From contig JANQID010000023.1 of assembly GCA_028282325.1 (NCBI GenBank), forward strand, positions 1-40,221: 40,221 bases of DNA, read 5' to 3'. This document shows, in pieces, positions 2,147 through 18,243 of this stretch; within the stretch, counting starts at the first letter, position 1; the number at the start of each line of letters is the position of its first letter. The position numbers were made by a program, and so were the translations under genes. This DNA is from Chloroflexaceae bacterium (GTDB lineage: Bacteria > Chloroflexota > Chloroflexia > Chloroflexales > Chloroflexaceae). The notes under the pieces were generated by a model, which was not told the origin of the DNA, ran no database searches, and worked only from the letters and a program-made list of their open reading frames with translations.

Positions 2147-3031
2147 TCACCAGGCGCGCCGCGCCTGGCGCAACAGCCAGATGTACGGCGGCACAGCCAG
2201 CGCCGTCAGCGCCGCGATCAACGTGTTCAGAGCCAGCGCGCCGGGGCGGACGGTCAGGTCAACGTCCTGATAGAGCATATAGGCTTCGACCGCCAACACA
2301 CGCGGGTAACTCTGCCCAAGCAGCAACGGCACCTCGAAAGCGCCAAAGGCGAACGCGAATACGATCGTCGCCGAGCCAATTAGCGCCGGCGCAACCAGCG
2401 GCAGAGTAACGTGCCAGAATGCTTGCCAGGGCGAAGCGCCGAGATTGCGAGCTGCCTGCTCCAATTCGTTTCCGGCGGACCGCAGCGCAGCCAGAGCAAC
2501 CAGTGTGATGAAGGGCAGCTCTTTCCAGACATAGGTGACAATAATTCCCACCGCCCCGCGATCATACACCAGCGCCGGGAAATCGGACGGCTCGGCAAGC
2601 AGACCGGCGGCGTAGAACAATCGCGCGAAGATGCCACTCTGCGTAAGAAGCAGCGTGACGCCGATCGCGGCCGCCAGATGTGGCGTCGGCAACGGCAATT
2701 GCACCAGCAAACGCACCAGCCGCGCCCCGCGAAAGGAGCGCCGCAACAGCAACGCCAGCCCCAGACTGAGCATAGTCGCCAGCGCCGTCGAAACCAGAGC
2801 AATGTAGAGCGTGAGCAGCAACGAGCGGAGAAAATCGCTGCTCAACACTGCATCGGCGTAAAAGCGCAGTGTCGGGCCGCCGACATCCACCACGCTGAAC
2901 AAACCCAGGCTCTGGGCCAGGCCGAACGCCAGCCCGCCAAGAAACGGCCCGCCCAGGATGATCAGCGCTGGGAACAACAGCAATATGAAGCCGCGCCGGG
3001 CGGCTATGGCTTTAACACTTCGGTTTGCCAA
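2147..3031 (-). CDS. ABC importer permease, MetI-type (first permease of a YnjB-like system)
   Basis: Membrane permease with about six hydrophobic spans and an EAA docking loop (ELEQAARNLGASPWQAFWHV, then TLPLVAPALIG). At 294 residues it is typical of PotB/ThiP-half-type permeases. E. coli YnjC is a single long protein of two fused permease units; here the two units are separate genes. The start at 3031 is TTG and overlaps the end of the binding-protein gene by 28 bases, which suggests translational coupling; no ATG is available in the N-terminal region. It is transcribed with the binding protein upstream and the kinase downstream. Specificity unknown. Confidence 0.87.
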   Translation of the reverse strand: MANRSVKAIAARRGFILLLFPALIILGGPFLGGLAFGLAQSLGLFSVVDVGGPTLRFYADAVLSSDFLRSLLLTLYIALVSTALATMLSLGLALLLRRSFRGARLVRLLVQLPLPTPHLAAAIGVTLLLTQSGIFARLFYAAGLLAEPSDFPALVYDRGAVGIIVTYVWKELPFITLVALAALRSAGNELEQAARNLGASPWQAFWHVTLPLVAPALIGSATIVFAFAFGAFEVPLLLGQSYPRVLAVEAYMLYQDVDLTVRPGALALNTLIAALTALAVPPYIWLLRQARRAW

Positions 3032-4281
3032 TCTTCTTCAATCCGCGTCAGCCAATCGGCCTGCAACTCCGGCAGCGCATTTGCCGCTAGCTCCTCGGCG
3101 GTCAGGGTCGCTACGCCCTGGGGTATCGCCGCCAAAAGCTCGCGATCCGACTCCGGCAGTGACTCAACCGCCATCACCGGCAGATCACCCCAGACTTCAG
3201 GTTTGGCTTTCTCGATTTGAGCCTGCGGCGACTGCAAGAAGTTCGCAACGACCATCGCAGCAGCCTTGTTGGTGGCATTAAACGGAATAGCCACATAATG
3301 CGTGTTGGCGATAGTTCCCGCATCAAAGAGATACGTGCGCACGCTGTCGGGGAAGACACCGCGGGCGATCGCGCCACTGGCAAAAGCCGGATTGTAGCTC
3401 ATCGTAAAATCCGCTTCGCCGTTGGCAAAGAGTTGATTGAGCTGATCGATCGTCTGTGGATAGGTCTCACCCTCGCGCCAGAGATACGGCTCCAGTTGGT
3501 TGAAATACTCCCAGGCGGCGCCGGCATTGTCGGCATAGACCGTTTCATCAAACGGGCCGATCAGTCGCTCATAGCCGCTCGACACCTCATAGAAGCCGTG
3601 CCGCACAAACACGCTCCCGGTAAAATCAGGTGGCGCAGGATAGGTAAACCGGCCCGGATGCGTCTGGGTCCACTCCAACAAATCGGCGAAAGACTTCGGT
3701 GGATCGGCGACCCGCGCGCTGTCGTAAATCATCACAAACTGAGCGCGTCCCCACGGCGCTTCATAGGCATCGACCGGATAGCCAAAATCATTCGCAATCG
3801 ACGGCTCGGCCCAGGGCACATACTGCGCGTTGGGAAGATTTTCGGCCCAGGGGCCGTACAACAACTCGCCCTGGCGCATCGTGCGGAAATTCTCGCCGTT
3901 GATCCAGATTAGATCAATGGTCCCATCGCTTAGCTTGCCTTCAGTCTTCTCGCCCAACAGCTTGTTGACTGTCTCCACAATATCGTTTACCGGCGTCTGG
4001 CGCAGGGTAATGCCATATTGCGCCAGAACCTGCGGCGCGACATATTCATTAACATACCGGTTGATGTTATCGTCGCCGCCCCACATAAAGAAGTTGACCG
4101 TCACGCCGCGTGCGCTACTCTCAACCTCAGGCCAGGAAAGACGCGCGGGATCTTCCGCTGCGCTCACATCAGCCGCCGCCGCGGTCGGCGCCAACTCGGA
4201 CGGTGACTGAACACTGCAGGCCGCCAGAGCCAACATCAGTCCTATGTACGGAATCCACCGCAACCAGAGTTTGTCCATCAT
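3004..4281 (-). CDS. YnjB-like ABC transporter substrate-binding lipoprotein
   Basis: Extracytoplasmic binding lipoprotein of an ABC importer. The N-terminus has a basic start, a hydrophobic stretch and a lipobox (LALAAC) giving a lipidated Cys near residue 22. The mature part shows the conserved YnjB signature regions VNFFMWGGDDNINRYVNEYV, GTIDLIWINGENFRTM and the LLYGPWAENLPN segment. At about 425 residues it fits that family. The start at 4281 (ATG, with a second ATG at 4278) follows GAGGA by 7 bases; an upstream GTG at 4305 is in frame but less likely. It is the first gene of the importer operon and is divergent from the TetR gene at 4561. The YnjB ligand is not established. The acid-rich, Trp-containing binding face is typical of the thiamine/polyamine/iron-type fold, so the ligand stays open. 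Confidence 0.85.
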   Translation of the reverse strand: MMDKLWLRWIPYIGLMLALAACSVQSPSELAPTAAAADVSAAEDPARLSWPEVESSARGVTVNFFMWGGDDNINRYVNEYVAPQVLAQYGITLRQTPVNDIVETVNKLLGEKTEGKLSDGTIDLIWINGENFRTMRQGELLYGPWAENLPNAQYVPWAEPSIANDFGYPVDAYEAPWGRAQFVMIYDSARVADPPKSFADLLEWTQTHPGRFTYPAPPDFTGSVFVRHGFYEVSSGYERLIGPFDETVYADNAGAAWEYFNQLEPYLWREGETYPQTIDQLNQLFANGEADFTMSYNPAFASGAIARGVFPDSVRTYLFDAGTIANTHYVAIPFNATNKAAAMVVANFLQSPQAQIEKAKPEVWGDLPVMAVESLPESDRELLAAIPQGVATLTAEELAANALPELQADWLTRIEEDWQTEVLKP

Positions 4282-4500
4282 CTCCTCGTCCTCGTAGACT
4301 CTCACTCGACTGCTGAGTACATCCGCAACACCGTCGGCGCCTTCCTGCCAGGAGCCTGACCGAAAAAGACACCCTGAAGCACATCGCTGGATCCCCGCTT
4401 ACGCGGGCTCTTCGCAGCAGATGATACCACAGTCCTGACGCCACGCGCGTGACCGACAGCCAACTGATCCAGTAAATGCACTCTAACCAGGCGTCAATGC

Positions 4501-4529
4501 TTGACACGCCTGGATCGGCGTTCTATAAT
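4501..4529 (+). promoter_or_regulatory. Sigma-70-type promoter of the TetR gene
   Basis: A perfect TTGACA (4501-4506) and a perfect TATAAT (4524-4529) are separated by 17 bases. Transcription should start near 4536, inside the palindrome at 4531-4546, giving a leader of only about 25 bases before the ATG at 4561. Confidence 0.85.
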
Positions 4530-4530
4530 C

Positions 4531-4546
4531 TTGATTGACCAATCAA
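4531..4546. promoter_or_regulatory. Palindromic operator, probably for TetR autorepression
   Basis: TTGATTG-AC-CAATCAA, two perfect 7-base arms around a 2-base centre. It starts one base after the -10 box and covers the expected transcription start, a classic place for autorepression by the TetR protein encoded 15 bases further on. I see no second copy near the divergent ABC operon. Confidence 0.7.
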
Positions 4547-4560
4547 TCAACGAAAGGTGT

Positions 4561-5196
4561 ATGCCAGTGCCGCCACGCGATACCCAGGACTACGAGCAGC
4601 GCCGTCAGCAAATCATTGATGGCGCACTAAAGACCTTCGCTCGCAAGGGCTTCGAAAAAGCGACGAACAAAGACATCGCCGAAGCCGCCGGAATCGGCTC
4701 GCCGGGGCTTATCTATCACTACTTCAAAGACAAAGCCGATCTCTTCCAGCAAGTGGTCAAGCAACGCGTGCCGGTACTCCGCCTGCTGATGCATCCCGAA
4801 CCGCTGATGGATCTCCCACCACGTGAAGGGTTGTTAATCATCGGGCGCGGGTATCTCCAGGCGCTTGCGCAGCCCTCGAACGTGGCGCTGTTCCGGCTGC
4901 TAATCGGCGAAGCAATGCGCAAACCCCACATCGCCGACATGATTAACCAGATCATTCCGGGGCGCGCTTTCGCCGCGCTATCAGCCTACCTGGCCCGCCA
5001 GATGGATGCGGGGCGGTTGCGGCGGATCGATCCCGGCATCGCGACGCGCTCCTTTCTGGGGCCGTTGATGCTCTACATCCTGAGTCGCGAGATCTTCCCC
5101 CAGCCCGATCGCGACACACTCGATCCCGAAACGATGGTCGCAGCAGCCATCGACATATTTCTCAATGGAATGGAAATCGACGCCAGCGCCTCCTAA
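4561..5196 (+). CDS. TetR/AcrR-family transcriptional regulator
   Basis: A 211-residue DNA-binding repressor. The N-terminal TetR helix-turn-helix is unmistakable (QIIDGALKTFARKGFEKATN, then KDIAEAAGIGSPGLIYHYFKDKADLF, about residues 16-60). The C-terminal ligand-binding half is helical and unspecific (GAMRKPHIADMI-like core, MDAGRLRRIDP). I use the ATG at 4561 because AAAGG lies just upstream and the promoter maps immediately before it; longer in-frame readings would start inside the promoter. Its own promoter carries a palindrome over the start site, so autorepression is likely. Its target is unknown: the divergent ABC importer is a neighbour, but no matching operator was seen there. Its stop codon overlaps that of the convergent RecD2 gene. 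Confidence 0.92.
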   Translation: MPVPPRDTQDYEQRRQQIIDGALKTFARKGFEKATNKDIAEAAGIGSPGLIYHYFKDKADLFQQVVKQRVPVLRLLMHPEPLMDLPPREGLLIIGRGYLQALAQPSNVALFRLLIGEAMRKPHIADMINQIIPGRAFAALSAYLARQMDAGRLRRIDPGIATRSFLGPLMLYILSREIFPQPDRDTLDPETMVAAAIDIFLNGMEIDASAS

Positions 5197-9707: not shown

Positions 9708-11942
9708 TTACGAGTAGAGCGCCGCAATAACCAGCGGCGTAAGCAGGCCCTCAACCAACGATCCTGCCAGGATCATTGGAAGCAGCACGAACAGCCAGAT
9801 TTTGGTGAAATTCGCCAGCGCCCAGAGGACATTCTGGCCGGCGCTAAATCCCTTCGGCGGAGCCAGCAACGCCGCACCGATGCGCAGACCGATCGCCGCA
9901 CTGAGAATGAATGCCGGCAGCTCGATGATGCCATGCGGAAAGACGTAGGCCAGAATGAATTGTAGCGGACTATCTGCGCCCAAAGTCAGCCAGCTTCCGC
10001 CCTGATCCGCGAGGGCGCTGGACACAAAGCCGATCTGCGCGAAGGCTACAGCCGGCACCAGGAACGCGAATATGCCGAAACTAATCGCCGAGAAGACATT
10101 GGAAAGGATCGAGACGCGCAGGTTGTTGGCGAAAATCGCCAGCGCCAGCAGCGGCGATGGCGGCGGAGCGGCGCCGACCTGAGCCAGATAAGCGTCGAAC
10201 GCGCCGACATCATAATTGCTGCCCACATAGCCGCCGCTTAACATGCCGCTGATTGCCGCCAGCAATGCAACAGCGATCGGCAGCCGCAATTCATACAATA
10301 AGCGCGGAAGCTCCTGGCGGTAGAAACGCAGCGCCGACAACGGCAGACCTTGATAGAAATCGGGCGTAACCCCTGCCGGCTGATATTCATAGAAGAACAG
10401 CCGAAACGTATCTGTAATTCGCCGGAAGCTCAACTGCTCATGCTCGCGCGAGAGGATCTCCTCGCGATTAAACGCCGCCAGGCCCGCGCGGATGAGCGCC
10501 AGCGCGATGACGGCGAGCGCAGCGACAAGAAACCAGAGTACATCCCAACGCCGGGCGATGAATAACAGCGCCTGCAACTGAAGGATAATAGCCGAGGGGA
10601 TAAGCACAAAGCTGGCCAACAATGTCGCCGCACGCACGCTGCCGGTGTGGCTGGAGATCACCACCGCCCCGGAGACCATCACCAGCGTGATCATCATAAT
10701 CATCACCAGGATCTGAACCAGATGCAAAGGCGTCATCGCAATGGCATACAGATCGGGGAAGAACGTGGCAATGCCAAACAGAAACGCCAGCATCGCGATG
10801 ATGCTAGAAACCAATGGGATAACCAGGGCTGAGAAAAGCTTACTTATGTAAAGCTGTCTGTCGGTAATCGGCATTGACAGCAGCGCCTCCAGGCTATTGC
10901 GCTCACGTTCGCCGACGAACGACTCCAGCGCGGTGATCAGCGAAAAGCTGGCGGGAACAAAGCCGACCAGCAGTGCTGCAAACGGAACAAGCAAACCGAT
11001 TTGCGATGCACCGCCCAGAAAGCCAATCGCAAAGTTTACGCCCCCCACCAGCGCTGCCGGAAGCACGCATGTCAAAATGAATACTGGGATCAGCACCCGC
11101 CAGTCGGTCAACGTCTCGACCAATTCGCGGCGAGCGATGACCACAATCGGCGGCGAGCGCCGCGACGACGGACTCACCGCCGAAGGCCGGGCGCCGGGCG
11201 CGCCCCGTTGATGTTCGCGCGAGAGGATCTCCTCACGATTGAAGGTTGCCAGACCGGCACGCACTAGCAAGCCGGATAGTACGGCCAGACCCGCGCCGAC
11301 CAGCCAGAGCGATTCCCACCGCTGGTTGATGATCAACACTGCTTCAAGCTGCACCACCCCGGCCATCGGCAATAACACCATGCTGGACATCAGATTGGCG
11401 GCGCGAATGCTGCTGATGTGACTGGAAATCACCACCGCCCCGGCAACCATCGTCAGCGCCATTAATCCAACCAGCGCGAAGAGCAGCAACAGGCGCGGCA
11501 GCGTGATCGCGGCAAAATACAGATCCGGCGTAAACACATACAGCATGAAGGTGAATACCAACATCGCCGAGAAGCTGGAAATCAGCGGGATGACGAGCGA
11601 GGAATAGAGTTTGCTGATGTATAGATCGCGATCATCGATCGGCATCGACAGCAGCGCCTCCAGGCTGTTACGCTCACGCTCGCCGACGAACGACTCCAGC
11701 GCGGTGATGAGCGAAAAGCTCGCCGGCACAAACCCAACCAGCAGCGCCGCGAACGGCGTCAGCCGCCCGGCTAACTCGGCATCATCAACATAATTGACAA
11801 CCACCCGCGACGCGCCGACCAGCAGTTGGGGCAAAATGAATGTAAGCAACGCGATCGGCAGCACAATGCGCCAGTCACTCAATGTATCTCGCACCTCGCG
11901 CCGCATAATCGTTGCAATAGCGCTTGTTTTCATTGTTTGCAT
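9708..11942 (-). CDS. Three-module membrane protein: ABC-2 permease, ABC-2 permease, SpoIIM domain
   Basis: A 744-residue membrane protein. Residues about 8-235 and 265-500 are two copies of an ABC-2/NatB-like permease unit. Each contains PFAALLVGFVPASFSLITAL, an ESFVGERERNSLEALLSMPI segment and an LYISKL segment. Each copy ends with a FNREEILSREH motif. Residues about 540-740 are a SpoIIM/DUF95-type unit (RFYRQELPRLLYELR, FANNLRVSILSNVFSAISFG, YVFPHGIIELPAFILSAAIG). These units are normally separate proteins. The ATPase gene lies immediately upstream (its TAG ends one base before this ATG), so the pair forms one exporter-type ABC complex. Exported substrate unknown. The start at 11942 is coupled to that stop; an ATG at 11933 also exists. 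The two permease copies still share long stretches of DNA identity. Confidence 0.85.
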   Translation of the reverse strand: MQTMKTSAIATIMRREVRDTLSDWRIVLPIALLTFILPQLLVGASRVVVNYVDDAELAGRLTPFAALLVGFVPASFSLITALESFVGERERNSLEALLSMPIDDRDLYISKLYSSLVIPLISSFSAMLVFTFMLYVFTPDLYFAAITLPRLLLLFALVGLMALTMVAGAVVISSHISSIRAANLMSSMVLLPMAGVVQLEAVLIINQRWESLWLVGAGLAVLSGLLVRAGLATFNREEILSREHQRGAPGARPSAVSPSSRRSPPIVVIARRELVETLTDWRVLIPVFILTCVLPAALVGGVNFAIGFLGGASQIGLLVPFAALLVGFVPASFSLITALESFVGERERNSLEALLSMPITDRQLYISKLFSALVIPLVSSIIAMLAFLFGIATFFPDLYAIAMTPLHLVQILVMIMMITLVMVSGAVVISSHTGSVRAATLLASFVLIPSAIILQLQALLFIARRWDVLWFLVAALAVIALALIRAGLAAFNREEILSREHEQLSFRRITDTFRLFFYEYQPAGVTPDFYQGLPLSALRFYRQELPRLLYELRLPIAVALLAAISGMLSGGYVGSNYDVGAFDAYLAQVGAAPPPSPLLALAIFANNLRVSILSNVFSAISFGIFAFLVPAVAFAQIGFVSSALADQGGSWLTLGADSPLQFILAYVFPHGIIELPAFILSAAIGLRIGAALLAPPKGFSAGQNVLWALANFTKIWLFVLLPMILAGSLVEGLLTPLVIAALYS
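10867..10985. repeat. Intragenic DNA repeat, second permease unit
   Basis: About 119 bases nearly identical to 11638-11757. They encode the MPI(T/D)DR-LYISKL, ESFVGERERNSLEALLS and GFVPASFSLITAL regions of the second ABC-2 unit. Confidence 0.8.
11638..11757. repeat. Intragenic DNA repeat, first permease unit
   Basis: Partner of the 10867-10985 repeat in the same orientation, encoding the same segment of the first ABC-2 unit. Identity is concentrated here while the flanking transmembrane parts have diverged. Confidence 0.8.
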
Positions 11943-11943
11943 T

Positions 11944-12942
11944 CTAAGCTACACCCTCCGCTTCACGCCGCGCGCCGCTTGTTGACGCCGCCGCACGCGC
12001 ATGGTGCTCGCTGTCGAGCGCTTCCTGCTCGGCGACAATGCGCAAATACACATCCTCCAGACTGCGCTGCACCTCGGTGATGGCTACGACCGGCAGATGA
12101 TGATCAAGAAGTCGGCGGACAATGCGCGGATTGACGAGGTGCGGCTCTGCGCAACGGTAGCGTGACACCGTCGCATCAACATACTCGACGTGCGCCAGGC
12201 CATCGAGCAGGGGAACGACTGCGGCTGCCTGATGCGACGGCGCGACACGCACCTCCCAGACCGGATCGCCCAACAACTGGCGGGTGAGCTGCTCCAACGC
12301 GCCCTCGGCGATGATCCGGCCGCCGCAGATGATAGCGATCCGATCGGCCAGCGCCTCGGCCTCGGCCAGGTTATGGGTCGTTAGCAGAATCGAACGCTCG
12401 GTAGCGCGCAACTCGCCGATGGCGTCACGCACTACGCGGGCGCTCTGCGGATCCATCGCTGTCGTCGGCTCGTCGAGGAATAACACTGGCGGGTCGTGAA
12501 TGAGCGCACGAACCAGCGCGATCTTCTGGCGCATACCTTTGGAATAGCTGTCGAGGCGTTTATCGCGCGCTTCCCACAGGTCAAATTGCTTGAGCAACTT
12601 CTCGACGCGCATGCGTGCATCGACCGGATGCATATGCTGCAACGCACCGAAAAAATCGAGATATTCAACGGCGCGCATACGGCTATACAACCCCGGGTAC
12701 TCGGTCAGCAAGCCGATGTTGCTGCGTGCTGCCTGAGCATCACGCACCACGTCGTAGCCGTTGACGCGCGCCCAACCGCTGGTTGGTTTAAGAATTGCGC
12801 CGAGCATTCGCACCGTTGTGGTTTTGCCGGCGCCATTAGGGCCAAGCAGCGCAAGCAGCTCGCCGGGACGAATAGTTAAAGTTAAATCGCGTACGGCCTG
12901 AAACGCGCCGAATCGTTTACACAGTTCATGGGCTTCGATCAT
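11944..12942 (-). CDS. ABC-2-type exporter ATP-binding protein (NatA-like)
   Basis: Cytoplasmic ATPase that powers the neighbouring ABC-2/SpoIIM membrane protein. Walker A LLGPNGAGKTTTVRMLGAIL is near residue 40, the ABC signature is LDSYSKGMRQKIALVRAL, Walker B is PVLFLDEPTTAMDP and the switch His is in ILLTTHNLAEAEALADRI. About 332 residues, with a C-terminal tail after residue 220 typical of NatA/CcmA-type exporters. The start is the ATG at 12942, before the canonical IEAHELCKRFG; GAGGA lies 7-8 bases upstream. The frame stays open to 13101, but that extension has no family support. Its stop is one base from the permease ATG. Substrate unknown. Confidence 0.93.
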   Translation of the reverse strand: MIEAHELCKRFGAFQAVRDLTLTIRPGELLALLGPNGAGKTTTVRMLGAILKPTSGWARVNGYDVVRDAQAARSNIGLLTEYPGLYSRMRAVEYLDFFGALQHMHPVDARMRVEKLLKQFDLWEARDKRLDSYSKGMRQKIALVRALIHDPPVLFLDEPTTAMDPQSARVVRDAIGELRATERSILLTTHNLAEAEALADRIAIICGGRIIAEGALEQLTRQLLGDPVWEVRVAPSHQAAAVVPLLDGLAHVEYVDATVSRYRCAEPHLVNPRIVRRLLDHHLPVVAITEVQRSLEDVYLRIVAEQEALDSEHHARAAASTSGARREAEGVA

Positions 12943-13042
12943 ACTCGTTCCTCTTATTGATAGCTGGAATTGAGCGTCTTTCTGCGAAACAGACGACCAA
13001 TCCGTATGTATTGCACCAGGAAATCTGGACGAGACATTTGTA

Positions 13043-13067
13043 TTGCTGTAAAGCAGTATAGCAGCAA
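13043..13067. promoter_or_regulatory. Inverted repeat between divergent operons
   Basis: TTGCTG (13043-13048) and CAGCAA (13062-13067) frame an A/T-rich centre, and the site lies between the ABC ATPase (minus) and deacetylase (plus) genes. On the minus strand it contains -10-like TATACT and TACAAA boxes. It could be an operator or the ABC promoter; support is limited to symmetry and position. Confidence 0.3.
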
Positions 13068-13134
13068 CCGTTCGCTTATGCCTTACCAGTGTTGCGGCCA
13101 ATTAGTCCTATCTCGCAACGGGACGGCGCGCCCT

Positions 13135-13163
13135 TTGTCAACACCTACGCCTTATGCTAGAAT
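13135..13163 (+). promoter_or_regulatory. Promoter of the polysaccharide export locus
   Basis: TTGTCA (13135-13140) and TAGAAT (13158-13163) with an exact 17-base spacer. Transcription would start near 13170, about 65 bases before the deacetylase ATG. No other good promoter was seen before 25599, where the genes are closely packed, so this may drive the whole locus. Confidence 0.6.
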
Positions 13164-13233
13164 ATGCCGCCTGGAGAACAATGCATTGATCGCTTCAGGT
13201 TGCTTTACAGCGGCTTCCGCACAAAGTTCTGCT

Positions 13234-15093
13234 ATGCGGAATCCGCGCTCTGGAATGATTTCACGACGTCTGCTGCTTGGCGCGACAATTGTTTGTTTGT
13301 TGGTAGGAGTATGGGGCTTGACAATCTTTGTTCAGCAGCGCATTGAACGCTGCGCATACGTCCCCCTCCTGGCCGACAACCTGCTCCCCAACGCCGATCT
13401 GGCAACGCCTGGCGCTGTCCCTGACATACCCCACGGCTGGGTCGCCGGCGCACCGGGCGTCCGGCTCGGCGATTTTGCTGTGGATGGCGACGGACGCGCC
13501 CTACAGTTGATCGGCATTGCCAACTATGTGCAAACACCGCCGATCTCCGTTGAGACAGGACGAAGCTACTGCTTCGATGGTCTCGCGATTACCGATGCGG
13601 CGAATCGCGGCTCGGCGACACGCTTGCAGGTAACATTCCACTGGTATAACGCTGCCAAACACGAGATTGCCGTTAACGCCACGACCTGGCAACCGGCCAC
13701 GCTCTGGCAGCCCAACAACCCGCCGGAACGCTGGTCGTCGATTTCTGCCGCATTTCAGGCTCCGCCGAAAGCCACAGAGTTGCTCATTCGCATCCATCCC
13801 GCATCCGACGATCGCGTCTACCTCGATGCAATGCACGTCCGGGCCGGCGGGCAGCCGCCCGTTACGAACTCCGAGCACGTCGTCGATTCTGACGCAACAC
13901 AGCCTAGCCTCGCACCCTGGCCCAACGGCAAACGCGCCGCCGTCGCCTTTACCTTCGATTGGGAAACGACGATGAGCGGATTGATACACTCGCGCTCGGT
14001 CGACGACCCGAATTTTACCAAGGATCCGGTGCAACGCGGCTTGCGTATGCGCGAAGGCATTACTACAACTCTGGCACTCTTTCAACCGTACAACATTCGC
14101 GCAACCTATTATGCTACCGGCTACAACTTTCTCATGGGCAATACAGCGCGCACGCAATATATGGATAACCCGACCTACGCCTGGGCCAGCACCGAGAATC
14201 GCTGGACCTCTGACCGCTGGCAAACCACGCCCTGGTTCGCCGATGACCCTTACGGCACAGTTGCAAGTCACCCGGCCTGGTATTTTGGCGATCTGACGCC
14301 GCTGCTTCAGCGCACCAACCAGGACATTCAGAGCCATACGTTTAGCCACTTTTACGGCGGCTTCGTCAACGCACACGATTGGCAAGCCGACTTCGCCGCC
14401 TGGAAGCAAGTCGCCGCCGAACGCAGCGTCCCGCCCGCGCGCTCGCTGGCTTTTCCGTGGAGCGGCAGCGGCGGGATGAGCGACGCCAGTTGGGATATGC
14501 TCGAAAGCGCCGGAATCACTTCCGTCACCCGCCTGAGCGATCAGTCGCAGTACAACCTGTTTCCGCGCGATGCGAGCGGACTGATCGCCGATCCGCGCTG
14601 CCGCCCGCTGCCCGGTCACGAACGCATCCTGGCCTGTCCCGACTTCTACCTCACGCCGCAGACCGCCGAACAGGCAATCGCCCAGATCGACGCCGCCCGC
14701 GCGGTTGGCGGGATGATCGACTTGTGGGCGCACACCGAGGAAGTGACATCGCCGGAGCAGATCGAGGCATGGCAGCGTGTGATTGATTATGTCGCCGGTC
14801 AGCCCGATGTCTGGATCGCGCCGTTGAGCGAGATTGCCGATTGGCAGCAGGCGCTCGAACACGCGCATATCACGATCATCGAACCGACGGCCGACGCTAA
14901 CCCGCTAGCCTTCCGCGTGACGAATAATGGTCAACGTGATCTGAACCGGCTGGCGCTGACGCTGCCTTTCTTGCCCACCCGTTTGACCGTCGATGGCGAC
15001 GAGCGCGGCGCGGCGTTAAGCGACCCGCCGACGCTTATCGTTGATCTGCGCGCTGGGCAAACGATGGAGGTGGAACTATGGCCGAAACTCTAG
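13234..15093 (+). CDS. Membrane-anchored polysaccharide deacetylase with N-terminal carbohydrate-binding-like domain
   Basis: About 619 residues. A signal anchor (LLLGATIVCLLVGVWGLTIF, about residues 12-32) places the rest outside the membrane. Next is a galactose-binding-like beta-sandwich (NLLPNADLATPGAVPDIPHG to VYLDAMHV), then a NodB-type deacetylase domain: TFDWE near 240-244 in place of the common TFDDG, and QSHTFSH with the metal-binding His pair near 368 and 372, then FPWSGSGGMS. A beta-rich C-terminal region follows. The Asp of TFDWE and the HxxxH pair fit a metal-dependent de-N- or de-O-acetylase. I start at the ATG at 13234; an ATG at 13255 is equally possible. The end overlaps the exporter fusion gene by 16 bases, so the enzyme probably edits the polymer exported by this locus. 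Confidence 0.85.
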   Translation: MRNPRSGMISRRLLLGATIVCLLVGVWGLTIFVQQRIERCAYVPLLADNLLPNADLATPGAVPDIPHGWVAGAPGVRLGDFAVDGDGRALQLIGIANYVQTPPISVETGRSYCFDGLAITDAANRGSATRLQVTFHWYNAAKHEIAVNATTWQPATLWQPNNPPERWSSISAAFQAPPKATELLIRIHPASDDRVYLDAMHVRAGGQPPVTNSEHVVDSDATQPSLAPWPNGKRAAVAFTFDWETTMSGLIHSRSVDDPNFTKDPVQRGLRMREGITTTLALFQPYNIRATYYATGYNFLMGNTARTQYMDNPTYAWASTENRWTSDRWQTTPWFADDPYGTVASHPAWYFGDLTPLLQRTNQDIQSHTFSHFYGGFVNAHDWQADFAAWKQVAAERSVPPARSLAFPWSGSGGMSDASWDMLESAGITSVTRLSDQSQYNLFPRDASGLIADPRCRPLPGHERILACPDFYLTPQTAEQAIAQIDAARAVGGMIDLWAHTEEVTSPEQIEAWQRVIDYVAGQPDVWIAPLSEIADWQQALEHAHITIIEPTADANPLAFRVTNNGQRDLNRLALTLPFLPTRLTVDGDERGAALSDPPTLIVDLRAGQTMEVELWPKL

Positions 15094-16910
15094 GCCAGAA
15101 CGCGCCAACCATCAACCAACAGACGCGAGGCTGGGTCGGCGCATTGATCAGCCAGCGGGCAGGGCTGCGGATCTACCAATGGTTATGGATCGTGCTCTGC
15201 ACGATCGGCGCGCTGGCGGCTGCCGCGCCGCGCATCCTTTCACAACCTGTCATCTACATGAGTAGCGCCGCCGTCCAGATCGACATCGGCGGACGCTATC
15301 ACGAACTCTACACCGACGGCAAACCCGACGCCGATTTTATCGCGGTTCAGCACATCACTTTTGAGCTTCTGCGCGTGCAATATCCCGAACTCGGATCACC
15401 AACGCTCCATGTGCGCTTTGAACCGCATTCCAACGGCAGCATCGATGTCATCGCCGTCGGCTCCAGCGCCATCGAAGCTCAGATGCTCGCAGACAGCGCC
15501 GCCGAAGAACTGGCCCGCAGCGTTCGCGCCGCCGGCGGGCGCGAGATTTTGCGCAACCTGCTCGGCTGGGAATTGGCAGCCGCGCTGCGCGGCGATGCAC
15601 CGGAAACCCCGTTCCAGAGCTTTCTGCGCGAGATCATTCGTACCGGCGTTTTCTCGCTCAACCGACCCATCGAACCGGTGTCGCAGCACATCACTGCCGA
15701 TGAACTCGCCGCGCCGGAACTGAGCGACCTGACGCGCGCGCTCGAAGTAGGTGAAGTCCAGACGCGCATCTATACGCTGCCTGCGCTGGGATTGCAACTC
15801 GCCACGGCGGAGGGTGCGGTCGCCGAACAAATCACCCGCGATCAGCAACGGCTCACCGACGGATTGCAAGCCATTCGCGACGCGCTGAATTACCTTTACG
15901 TCAACCACGACGCGCGGTTCGATCCAACCGTTCCCTCGGATGCATTCCGAAGCGCGCCGGCCTTCCTGCCAGCCGCGCCGGAGAATCGCATGATCCCCTG
16001 GCTGCTCGGATTAACCGTTCTGTTCGGATTACTCTTTGGTCTGCTTGGCGTCATCGTTGATCGCTCGGCCGGCGTTATGTCCAAGGCGCGTGAATTATGG
16101 TTCTACCGCGAACTTATCCGCAACCTGGTGCTGCGCGATCTTCGCGTGCGCTACAAAGGCAGCGCGCTCGGCTATCTCTGGACGCAACTGGCGCCGCTGC
16201 TGCTGATGCTAGTTTTCTGGTTTGTGTTCAGCGTGTTTTTCCAATCCGGCATCGCCATGTTCGCTGTATTCCTAATCGTCGGCCTGCTGGTCTGGAACTA
16301 TTGCGCCGAGTCGGTGAGCGGCGGGACGCGCAGCATCATCGACAACTCAAACCTGATCAAGAAGGTCTTCTTTCCACGAGAAGTATTGCCGCTGGTAAAC
16401 GTTTTCTCAGGACTGCTCAACTACATTTTGTCGCTGCCAACGATGCTGCTGGTGATGGCGGTTGTGCAACTGCTCTACTCGCCGTTGCAGGGATCGTTGA
16501 ATTTCTCGTGGACGATGGCATATTTGCCGATCCTGCTGATCATCCAGACGATCTTTCTCGCCGGCGTTACGCTGTTTACAAGTTCGCTCGCCGTGTTCTT
16601 TCGCGACGCCGTCCACCTGATCGGGATCATCATTCAGTTCTGGTTTTTCCTAACCCCGGTGCTATATTCGCTGGACGCAATTGATGCAACCATCGCCCGC
16701 ATCATCCGCTGGGTCAACCCGATGGCGTCGCTGGTCGATTTCTACCGCGAGATCTTGTATGGCAACACCGTCGCCGATGGCTTGATTCCTACGCCCGGAC
16801 TGCCCGCGCTCACCAGCGTGCTGCGCGTATTGATTACGTCGATCATCGTTTTGGCACTTGGCTACTGGTTCTTCCAGCGCAATAGCGGGCGGTTCGGCGA
16901 GGAGATTTAA
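15078..16910 (+). CDS. Wzz-like chain-length domain fused to Wzm-type polysaccharide ABC exporter permease
   Basis: A 610-residue fusion. Part one resembles a polysaccharide co-polymerase: TM1 about residues 33-53, an extracytoplasmic stretch to about 304 (VIYMSSAAVQIDIGG, TLHVRFEPHSNGSIDVIAV, coiled-coil-like AEQITRDQQRLTDGLQAIRD), and TM2 about 305-328. Part two, about 340-610, is a complete ABC-2 exporter permease of the Wzm/KpsM/TagG type (RDLRVRYKGSALGYLWTQLA, NLIKKVFFPREVLPLVNVFS, NPMASLVDFYREILYG). The frame is continuous and no ribosome site precedes the internal Met at 334, so this is a real fusion. The start follows a strong GGAGGTGG and overlaps the deacetylase gene. Wzt follows at 16999. 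In characterised ABC-dependent capsule systems the co-polymerase is a separate protein; here chain-length control and export are apparently joined. Confidence 0.85.
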   Translation: MAETLGQNAPTINQQTRGWVGALISQRAGLRIYQWLWIVLCTIGALAAAAPRILSQPVIYMSSAAVQIDIGGRYHELYTDGKPDADFIAVQHITFELLRVQYPELGSPTLHVRFEPHSNGSIDVIAVGSSAIEAQMLADSAAEELARSVRAAGGREILRNLLGWELAAALRGDAPETPFQSFLREIIRTGVFSLNRPIEPVSQHITADELAAPELSDLTRALEVGEVQTRIYTLPALGLQLATAEGAVAEQITRDQQRLTDGLQAIRDALNYLYVNHDARFDPTVPSDAFRSAPAFLPAAPENRMIPWLLGLTVLFGLLFGLLGVIVDRSAGVMSKARELWFYRELIRNLVLRDLRVRYKGSALGYLWTQLAPLLLMLVFWFVFSVFFQSGIAMFAVFLIVGLLVWNYCAESVSGGTRSIIDNSNLIKKVFFPREVLPLVNVFSGLLNYILSLPTMLLVMAVVQLLYSPLQGSLNFSWTMAYLPILLIIQTIFLAGVTLFTSSLAVFFRDAVHLIGIIIQFWFFLTPVLYSLDAIDATIARIIRWVNPMASLVDFYREILYGNTVADGLIPTPGLPALTSVLRVLITSIIVLALGYWFFQRNSGRFGEEI

Positions 16911-16998
16911 GCTGCCGGCAAATCAAAGATCACTGCTAGCGCGACGCGCAACGAGCGGATGGAAAGACGTTGCGCCAAACGGAAACCGCACCACAGGT

Positions 16999-18243
16999 AT
17001 GACAATCATTGAATTCGCCAACGTATCCAAACGTTTCATCTTGCACCTGAACCGACCGCGTTCGTTCCGCGATCGGCTGACCGGGATATTCAGTTCAAAC
17101 ACCCACGGCGAGGAGTTCTGGGCGCTGCGCGATGTCAGCTTTAAGATTGAGAAAGGGCAAAGCCTGGGGCTGATCGGACACAACGGCGCCGGCAAAAGCA
17201 CAGCGCTCAAGCTGATGACGCGTATTTTAGAGCCGACGAGCGGGCAGGTGCGAATGCGCGGGCGTGTGGCGGCGCTGCTTGAGTTGGGCAGCGGCTTCCA
17301 CCCCGACTTGAGCGGGCGCGAGAACGTATTTCTCTACGGTTCGTTGATGGGCTTCAGCCGCCGCGATATGCTGGCCCGCCTCGACGAAATCGTCGATTTC
17401 GCCGACATCGGCGAATTCATCGACACCGAGATCAAACACTATTCATCGGGAATGTACACACGCCTGGCGTTTGCCGTCGCCACAGCCGTTGATCCCGAAA
17501 TCCTGATCACCGACGAGGTGCTGGCCGTCGGCGATGAGGCATTTCAGCGCAAATGCATGGAGCGGATCTACAGCTTTCGCCAGGCCGGCAAAACAATCAT
17601 CTTCGTTTCACACGCATTGGAGATCGTGCGCTCACTCTGCGATCACGCAGTCTGGCTCGATCGCGGCGAGGCGCGGTGCGTCGGAACCGCCGACGAGGTC
17701 ATTGACTCCTATCTCCAGGAAACAAACCGGCGCGAAGCCAGGGAGCGCCAACGCCACACCACAGCGCAAAGCTGGGAAGACGCCGACGCCGAGCAGAGCA
17801 AGCGCTGGGGAACGCGCGAGATTGAGATCAAGCATATCGAGCTGCTCGGTCCAAAAGGAACGCCCCAGGATCTGTATTACACGGGCGAGCCTTTGACCAT
17901 TCGCTATCATTACCGGGCGAATATCCCAATCAACGACCCTCAATTTGGGCTAGCCATCTATCACGGCTCCGGCGTACATGTTACCGGCCCGAACAATCGC
18001 TTTTCCGGCTATCCCATCGCATCGGTACACGGAAGCGGGATCGTTGATTACACCATTCCCAACTTACCGCTCCTCCCCGGTATGTACTACTTGACGGTCG
18101 CCGTTCATGACGCGAATGGTCTCGTCACGTTCGACCATCATGAGCGTGCATACAGATTTACCGTGCGCTCGCACTCGCTCAAGACCAGTTACGGCCTGAT
18201 CGAACTCCCGGCGCGCTGGGTTCACGCAGCCACAGATGGGTAA
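16999..18243 (+). CDS. Wzt-type polysaccharide exporter ATPase with C-terminal carbohydrate-binding domain
   Basis: ATP-binding subunit for the Wzm-type permease. Residues 1-245 are the ATPase: SLGLIGHNGAGKSTALKLMT (Walker A, about 56-70), the family-specific HYSSGMYTRLAFAVAT signature and EILITDEVLAVGDEAFQRK (Walker B). Residues about 275-405 form a beta-rich Wzt C-terminal domain (EIKHIELLGPKG, GLAIYHGSGVHVTGPN, LLPGMYYLTVAVHD), which in O-antigen Wzt proteins binds the finished chain end. The full length of about 414 residues matches long-type Wzt. The start is the ATG at 16999 before TIIEFANVSKRF; the frame is open further upstream but has no homology there. The stop overlaps the next GT start by 8 bases. 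This supports a mechanism in which chain recognition gates export. Confidence 0.93.
   Translation: MTIIEFANVSKRFILHLNRPRSFRDRLTGIFSSNTHGEEFWALRDVSFKIEKGQSLGLIGHNGAGKSTALKLMTRILEPTSGQVRMRGRVAALLELGSGFHPDLSGRENVFLYGSLMGFSRRDMLARLDEIVDFADIGEFIDTEIKHYSSGMYTRLAFAVATAVDPEILITDEVLAVGDEAFQRKCMERIYSFRQAGKTIIFVSHALEIVRSLCDHAVWLDRGEARCVGTADEVIDSYLQETNRREARERQRHTTAQSWEDADAEQSKRWGTREIEIKHIELLGPKGTPQDLYYTGEPLTIRYHYRANIPINDPQFGLAIYHGSGVHVTGPNNRFSGYPIASVHGSGIVDYTIPNLPLLPGMYYLTVAVHDANGLVTFDHHERAYRFTVRSHSLKTSYGLIELPARWVHAATDG

Follow-up and report, generated by a model that had tools for sequence, protein, structure and literature searches.

An ABC-2 permease fused to a SpoIIM module and conserved across Chloroflexota

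Introduction

What is a SpoIIM (DUF95) module doing at the end of an ABC transporter permease? The question is raised by a single gene in the 40,221 nucleotides of DNA analysed here (this whole stretch is termed the window), which come from a filamentous green bacterium of the Chloroflexaceae, whose 744-residue product joins two ABC-2 units to such a module. According to the available part of PMC5898192, the SpoIIM family is old and widespread, occurring in all major archaeal lineages and in many bacteria, and the Bacillus protein serves as a scaffold for SpoIID and SpoIIP. In the available part of PMC6131525, loss of the DUF95 gene lcyD leaves a mature circular bacteriocin inside the cell, so that in one system at least a SpoIIM protein acts in export. 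We found no description of the fusion itself in the partly available literature on SpoIIM/DUF95 with ABC transporters, ABC-2, fused permeases, Chloroflexi or Lgt.

One frame encodes two ABC-2 units and a SpoIIM module

The fusion gene occupies positions 9708..11942 of the minus strand and starts with ATG; the open reading frame, Pfam, a domain scan and an AlphaFold2 model were used to delimit it. ABC-2 unit 1 spans residues 1-247 (11202..11942, minus strand; Pfam 11-198, domain scan 9-247 and the helices of the model), and unit 2 spans residues 265-505 (10428..11150, minus strand; domain scan 266-504 and the model). Residues 506-744 (9711..10427, minus strand) hold the SpoIIM module together with its N-terminal helices, as defined by PF01944 and by a separate model. 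In Pfam-A, ABC2_membrane_2 (PF12679) matched two stretches of the protein (3.6e-15, 56.4 bits against a cut-off of 27.2), as did PF01061, and SpoIIM (PF01944) matched at full length, i.e., profile positions 6-163 of 163, at residues 564-736 (9735-10253; E 3.8e-17, 63.1 bits, above the cut-off of 26.9). The original prediction had placed two ABC-2 units and SpoIIM in one 744-residue chain and proposed that a failure of residues 540-740 to match SpoIIM would count against it; Pfam recovers all of these parts above the curated cut-offs, the SpoIIM domain among them. A weak match to NF041647 (ABC_perm_CPBP), also in two stretches, scored 46.7 bits and fell far below its cut-off of 435. The two ABC-2 units are identical at 141 of 238 aligned residues, and the fusion gene is present in a single copy in its genome. 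The same genome carries a second, stand-alone SpoIIM gene (locus L168, 1174-2142, on contig C127; 322 residues, 125.4 bits).

Within the module lies the signature PHGIIE, at residues 669-674 (9921..9938, minus strand). Across 60 aligned SpoIIM domains, the P and H of this PHGxxE motif are invariant and the G and E nearly so. Modelled separately, the module reached a pLDDT of 95.6. Its fold search returned a weak top Z of 5.2 with unrelated entries, several type I importer permeases being among the top matches, and since Z did not exceed this value we make no claim of fold relationship. By sequence, a search of PDB with the SpoIIM profile gave one match, at chance level (E 0.33), and the whole 744-residue protein likewise found only a chance match.

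The fusion is conserved across the phylum

The source genome is a draft of 140 contigs, which could raise the suspicion that the frame is an assembly or annotation error. We therefore looked to its relatives, searching 400 genomes of the phylum with the fusion protein. In the window's family (f1), a single open frame covers the full query in all 23 genomes (in one of them, G353, the match falls in two pieces, joined by a 768-residue frame), and in family f2 all seven matched from residue 7 or 8 to 743, again in one frame. Two sister families have just the second permease unit with SpoIIM, in 7 of 9 genomes of f3 and in the one genome of f4; the other two f3 genomes, of genus g11, gave no match to the fusion in this search. 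A domain scan of 117 deduplicated fusion proteins assigned 31 to the ABC2-ABC2-SpoIIM architecture (hereafter the triple form) and 86 to ABC2-SpoIIM (the single form), and Pfam agreed with both architectures in seven further proteins (two triple, five single). The triple form occurs in three single-contig genomes (G118, G134 and G238), in the complete-genome record of Herpetosiphon aurantiacus (CP000875.1, 760 residues), and in named records of Chloroflexus, Chloroploca, Oscillochloris, Viridilinea and Herpetosiphon, and the single form in those of Roseiflexus and Anaerolineae.

With 31 distinct triple proteins from many genomes, complete ones included, the frame is not an assembly error, and because its two units differ at 97 of 238 positions it does not stem from a duplicated read. 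The relatives thus refute an artefact, to which we assign a negligible probability. The fusion is real and conserved across the phylum, and its basic form, ABC2-SpoIIM, is widespread in Chloroflexota. A first contig search for the fusion beyond Chloroflexota found no match; a second returned, among the best 79 loci listed, only Chloroflexota groups and two entries named only 'bacterium'. A plasmid search gave no full-length match; a Pediococcus plasmid permease that it returned aligns with 26% of the query, lacks SpoIIM among the neighbours listed for it, and was rejected.

The fusion keeps its partner ATPase

An ABC ATPase gene (11944..12942, minus strand, in a 332-residue reading; PF00005, 1.4e-30) directly precedes the permease gene, and its open frame extends back to 13101. 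Its TAG stop is followed by one base and then by the permease ATG, exactly the spacing originally reported. The coupling of the two genes that had been proposed on this basis also holds in relatives, where the ATPase is adjacent or retained. It lies directly upstream of the fusion in 19 of 23 f1 genomes and in 3/3, 7/7 and 1/1 of the f2, f3 and f4 loci examined, respectively. For loci outside the window's order, we discarded duplicates and matches below 100 or above 400 bits, leaving 74, and omitted from the count of any given neighbour those loci too near a contig end to show it; the ATPase was adjacent in 70 of the 71 deduplicated loci with enough upstream sequence. The four f1 genomes in which adjacency is broken (G094, G198, G230 and G375) still encode the ATPase, at 66-71% identity, the next paralogues reaching ~45% or less; in G198 and G230 the unlinked gene is on the fusion's own contig, some 25-26 kb away. 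This retention of the ATPase when unlinked is stronger evidence of partnership than synteny alone.

In locus L103, we found no partner ATPase beside the fusion, and a frame that looks FtsK/SpoIIIE-like by eye (2391-4886) lies 27 bases ahead of it. When un-fused ATPase, ABC2 and SpoIIM neighbours were sought within the phylum, no such ATPase was found beside the SpoIIM-only genes (L071-L075). Three of these (L071-L073), encoding a stand-alone SpoIIM of 242 residues, sit beside genes labelled by eye as an Xaa-Pro peptidase, EF-P and a biotin carrier protein.

The two ABC-2 units are predicted to form a pseudo-dimer

The AlphaFold2 model of the 744-residue chain (pLDDT 90.6, pTM 0.82) was compared with solved structures. 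Its residues 1-497 superposed on the fused permease of a mycobacterial efflux pump, the solved pseudo-dimer 8k1p (chain A; Z 19.8, 449 residues, 4.5 A), with both halves in one chain, and residues 5-499 on ABCA4 (7lkz_A; Z 19.7, 449 residues, 4.4 A); unit 1 by itself matched the NosFY chain 7o0z_E (Z 21.0, 221 residues, 3.0 A). This superposition of the first 497-499 residues on complete ABC-2-type membrane domains suggests that the units face each other within the chain.

Each unit also carries the motif GERExxxLExLLxxP in a cytoplasmic loop, which we take to be the coupling helix where ABC-2 permeases receive the ATPase. In the window, the motif reads GERERNSLEALLSMP in unit 1 (residues 87-101, 11640..11684, minus strand) and is identical in unit 2 (residues 344-358, 10869..10913, minus strand). 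By pattern it is found in the N unit of 31/31 triples and in the C unit of 24/31, the remaining seven C units (Chloroflexus-type) keeping GERERNT(L/F)E.LCA.P, i.e., a small change of LL to LC. Over the 31 triples, this loop is where N and C units are most alike, with a mean identity of 0.77 at residues 81-112 compared with 0.27-0.39 in four other stretches. Recent gene conversion between the units was considered and rejected: identical codons number 27 of 49 in the window's coupling region and 43 of 92 outside it (Fisher p 0.38). High loop identity without raised synonymous identity in the window points to selection rather than recent conversion. A single ATPase gene would supply a homodimer in need of two alike docking sites, which fits the likeness of the two loops.

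Alternatively, the chain might not be self-sufficient, two 744-residue chains pairing with one ABC-2 unit of each being structural only. The divergence of the units outside the coupling loop and the long branches of both units in some lineages would be compatible with this, yet the coupling loop persists in N and C units alike throughout the 31 triples, apart from the small changes in Chloroflexus C units, and the model pairs both units within one chain; we give such an arrangement a slim chance. The earlier proposal that the fused half-permeases make a complete pseudo-dimer is instead well supported as a structural prediction, by the fold matches to complete transporters and by the presence of the coupling loop in both units, and an ABC-2 pseudo-dimer with a C-terminal SpoIIM module is very probably the architecture of this protein.

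The same fold matches bear on whether the protein is a transporter at all. It could be a transmission device, in which ATP hydrolysis moves SpoIIM and so controls cell-wall hydrolases as in Bacillus, where SpoIIM has a known scaffold role (available part of PMC5898192); SpoIIM is, moreover, fixed to the ABC part throughout. However, the matched structures are ABC-2-type transporters with complete translocation domains and are not FtsX-like, and the neighbours tested did not include a conserved wall hydrolase, making such a device distinctly improbable. An ABCA/ABCG-like fold does not alone imply lipid cargo.

The second permease unit was added to an older fusion

The older unit is the ABC2-SpoIIM fusion, which the triple form elaborates at the level of the order. 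Two unit trees were built, a larger one of 90 rows (both units of each of the 31 triples, 62 in all, plus 28 single units that we selected from the 86) and a smaller one of 38 of these rows, again our choice, omitting the fast Chloroflexus units and L066. In the larger tree, which shows long branches in both units of some lineages, the N units of the window's family form the sister clade of its C units, and the f3 single units branch outside both. The f2 units also lie outside this N+C group, and in both trees the same is true of the N and C units of Herpetosiphonaceae, a family that includes a bin (L094) with the single form. Together, the outside position of the Herpetosiphonaceae units and the single form of L094 favour two independent duplications of the permease unit. 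In AU tests on the smaller tree, p was 0.28 for all N units as one clade, 0.047 for all C units, and 0.30 for Herpetosiphonaceae N and C units together as one clade. Two separate duplications are thus favoured by these trees, not proven.

Gene neighbours point to lipids and lipoproteins

Outside the window's order, the fusion recurs in an operon whose genes encode, in this order, a CDP-alcohol phosphatidyltransferase (PF01066), Lgt (PF01790), the ATPase, the fusion itself and a metallo-beta-lactamase (MBL)-fold hydrolase, exemplified by L056 (2809-7466). Among deduplicated loci there with at least 3.2 kb of upstream sequence, Lgt is upstream in 37/63, the CDP-transferase in 40/63 and both in 33/63, and the MBL hydrolase lies downstream in 38 of the 71 loci with enough downstream sequence, neighbours common to related genomes not being independent observations. 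Within the window's order, the neighbours are variable and the Lgt operon was not seen. In five Roseiflexaceae loci (L041, 4687-6021; L042; L068; L069; L089), Ffh/SRP54 follows the single-form fusion after 83-84 bases; L067 and L043 lack it there. The phosphatidyltransferase, Lgt and Ffh neighbours suggest a part in lipid, lipoprotein or membrane-protein biogenesis.

The amidase downstream of the fusion in the window, for which tests of co-transcription had been proposed, belongs to PF01425, to our knowledge not a family of cell-wall amidases. In a comparison of fusion loci it was found only in the window's genome, i.e., it is not a conserved neighbour; we rejected it as a partner, and a functional link with it is not supported.

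Divergent from the ATPase gene, the window encodes a polysaccharide deacetylase recognised by a weak match, an ABC-2 permease whose N-terminus carries a long extension, and a Wzt-type ATPase (12970-18243); G246 also has the deacetylase as a neighbour, at 57% identity. In L034, a CHAT-domain protein (PF12770; 7670-9757) follows the triple fusion, and L039 has a like-sized frame at that place.

The neighbourhood also bears on another possible role, namely the export of a peptide or a pump for self-protection; the protein would then be a fused counterpart of the circular bacteriocin sets of ATPase, membrane protein and SpoIIM. Such clusters do encode SpoIIM together with membrane proteins and an ATP-binding protein (PMC8659200, PMC10888436 and PMC6131525, as far as available), and the ATPase of the window resembles DrrA (TIGR01188, 279.3 bits, below the subfamily cut-off of 312.45). 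Nonetheless, no precursor-peptide gene was recognised adjoining the pair, small frames having been screened only unsystematically, and conservation across the phylum with Lgt as a neighbour looks like housekeeping, unlike a variable bacteriocin locus. We regard this role as unlikely.

Discussion

The permanent fusion to ABC-2, kept across the phylum with its ATPase, implies that SpoIIM works with an exporter. On balance, we somewhat favour an ABC-2 exporter, driven by ATP, whose entire membrane part comes from one polypeptide, with SpoIIM as a built-in accessory and a cargo of a lipid type. The lipid-type neighbours and the export role of lcyD lead us to take the fusion as an exporter or flippase of a hydrophobic or lipid-linked envelope component; that the cargo is a lipid or lipid-linked, most likely an envelope lipid or a lipid-anchored component, is proposed tentatively. 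In such an exporter, the two ABC-2 units would pair within one chain to form a complete translocation part, and the ATPase would dock as a homodimer on the coupling loop kept by each unit. SpoIIM, fixed at the C-terminus, may lie beside the channel and assist the entry or exit of a hydrophobic or lipid-linked cargo. In single-unit relatives, two chains would pair, so that each transporter has two SpoIIM modules; once the permease unit is duplicated, a complete transporter would have one.

Beyond the original prediction, the analysis adds that the fusion is conserved phylum-wide, that the triple form came later, and that the ATPase stays while the amidase is not included. The fusion ties the sporulation-named SpoIIM family directly to membrane export and, with its ATPase, makes a compact complex for purification. 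The existence of both a single and a triple form amounts to a natural experiment in stoichiometry, with either one SpoIIM per transporter or two, and the operon with Lgt and the phosphatidyltransferase leads to a testable cargo. A bolder scenario, put forward with considerable doubt, is that SpoIIM/DUF95 is a general ABC-2 export module; that the Chloroflexota fusion, working together with Lgt and a phospholipid-type synthase, is dedicated to the transport of membrane lipids or nascent lipoproteins; and that Chloroflexaceae and Herpetosiphonaceae, possibly twice independently, converted it to a machine made of one chain, in which each transporter has one SpoIIM.

Among known systems, the mycobacterial efflux pump (PDB 8k1m-8k1p, which we take to be Rv1217c-Rv1218c) likewise has both ABC-2 halves in one chain, its ATPase presumably being a separate chain; identity is ~13%, and its 509-530-residue aligned chain matches only the ABC-2 part, SpoIIM not being aligned. 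NosFY and the NatAB/DrrAB-type exporters share with the fusion locus an ATPase and an ABC-2 permease, but their permease halves are separate and SpoIIM is absent. NF041647 proteins also join an ABC permease to another membrane module, which is a CPBP intramembrane protease instead of SpoIIM. The SpoIIM of Bacillus subtilis (DMP complex) has the same PF01944 domain, yet in the available part of PMC5898192 it is a stand-alone scaffold for sporulation wall hydrolases, with no ABC part. Finally, LcyD and its circular bacteriocin relatives differ from the fusion in having SpoIIM on its own gene, a peptide cargo and no duplicated permease, but resemble it in that, according to the available part of PMC6131525, SpoIIM works with an ABC ATPase in export.
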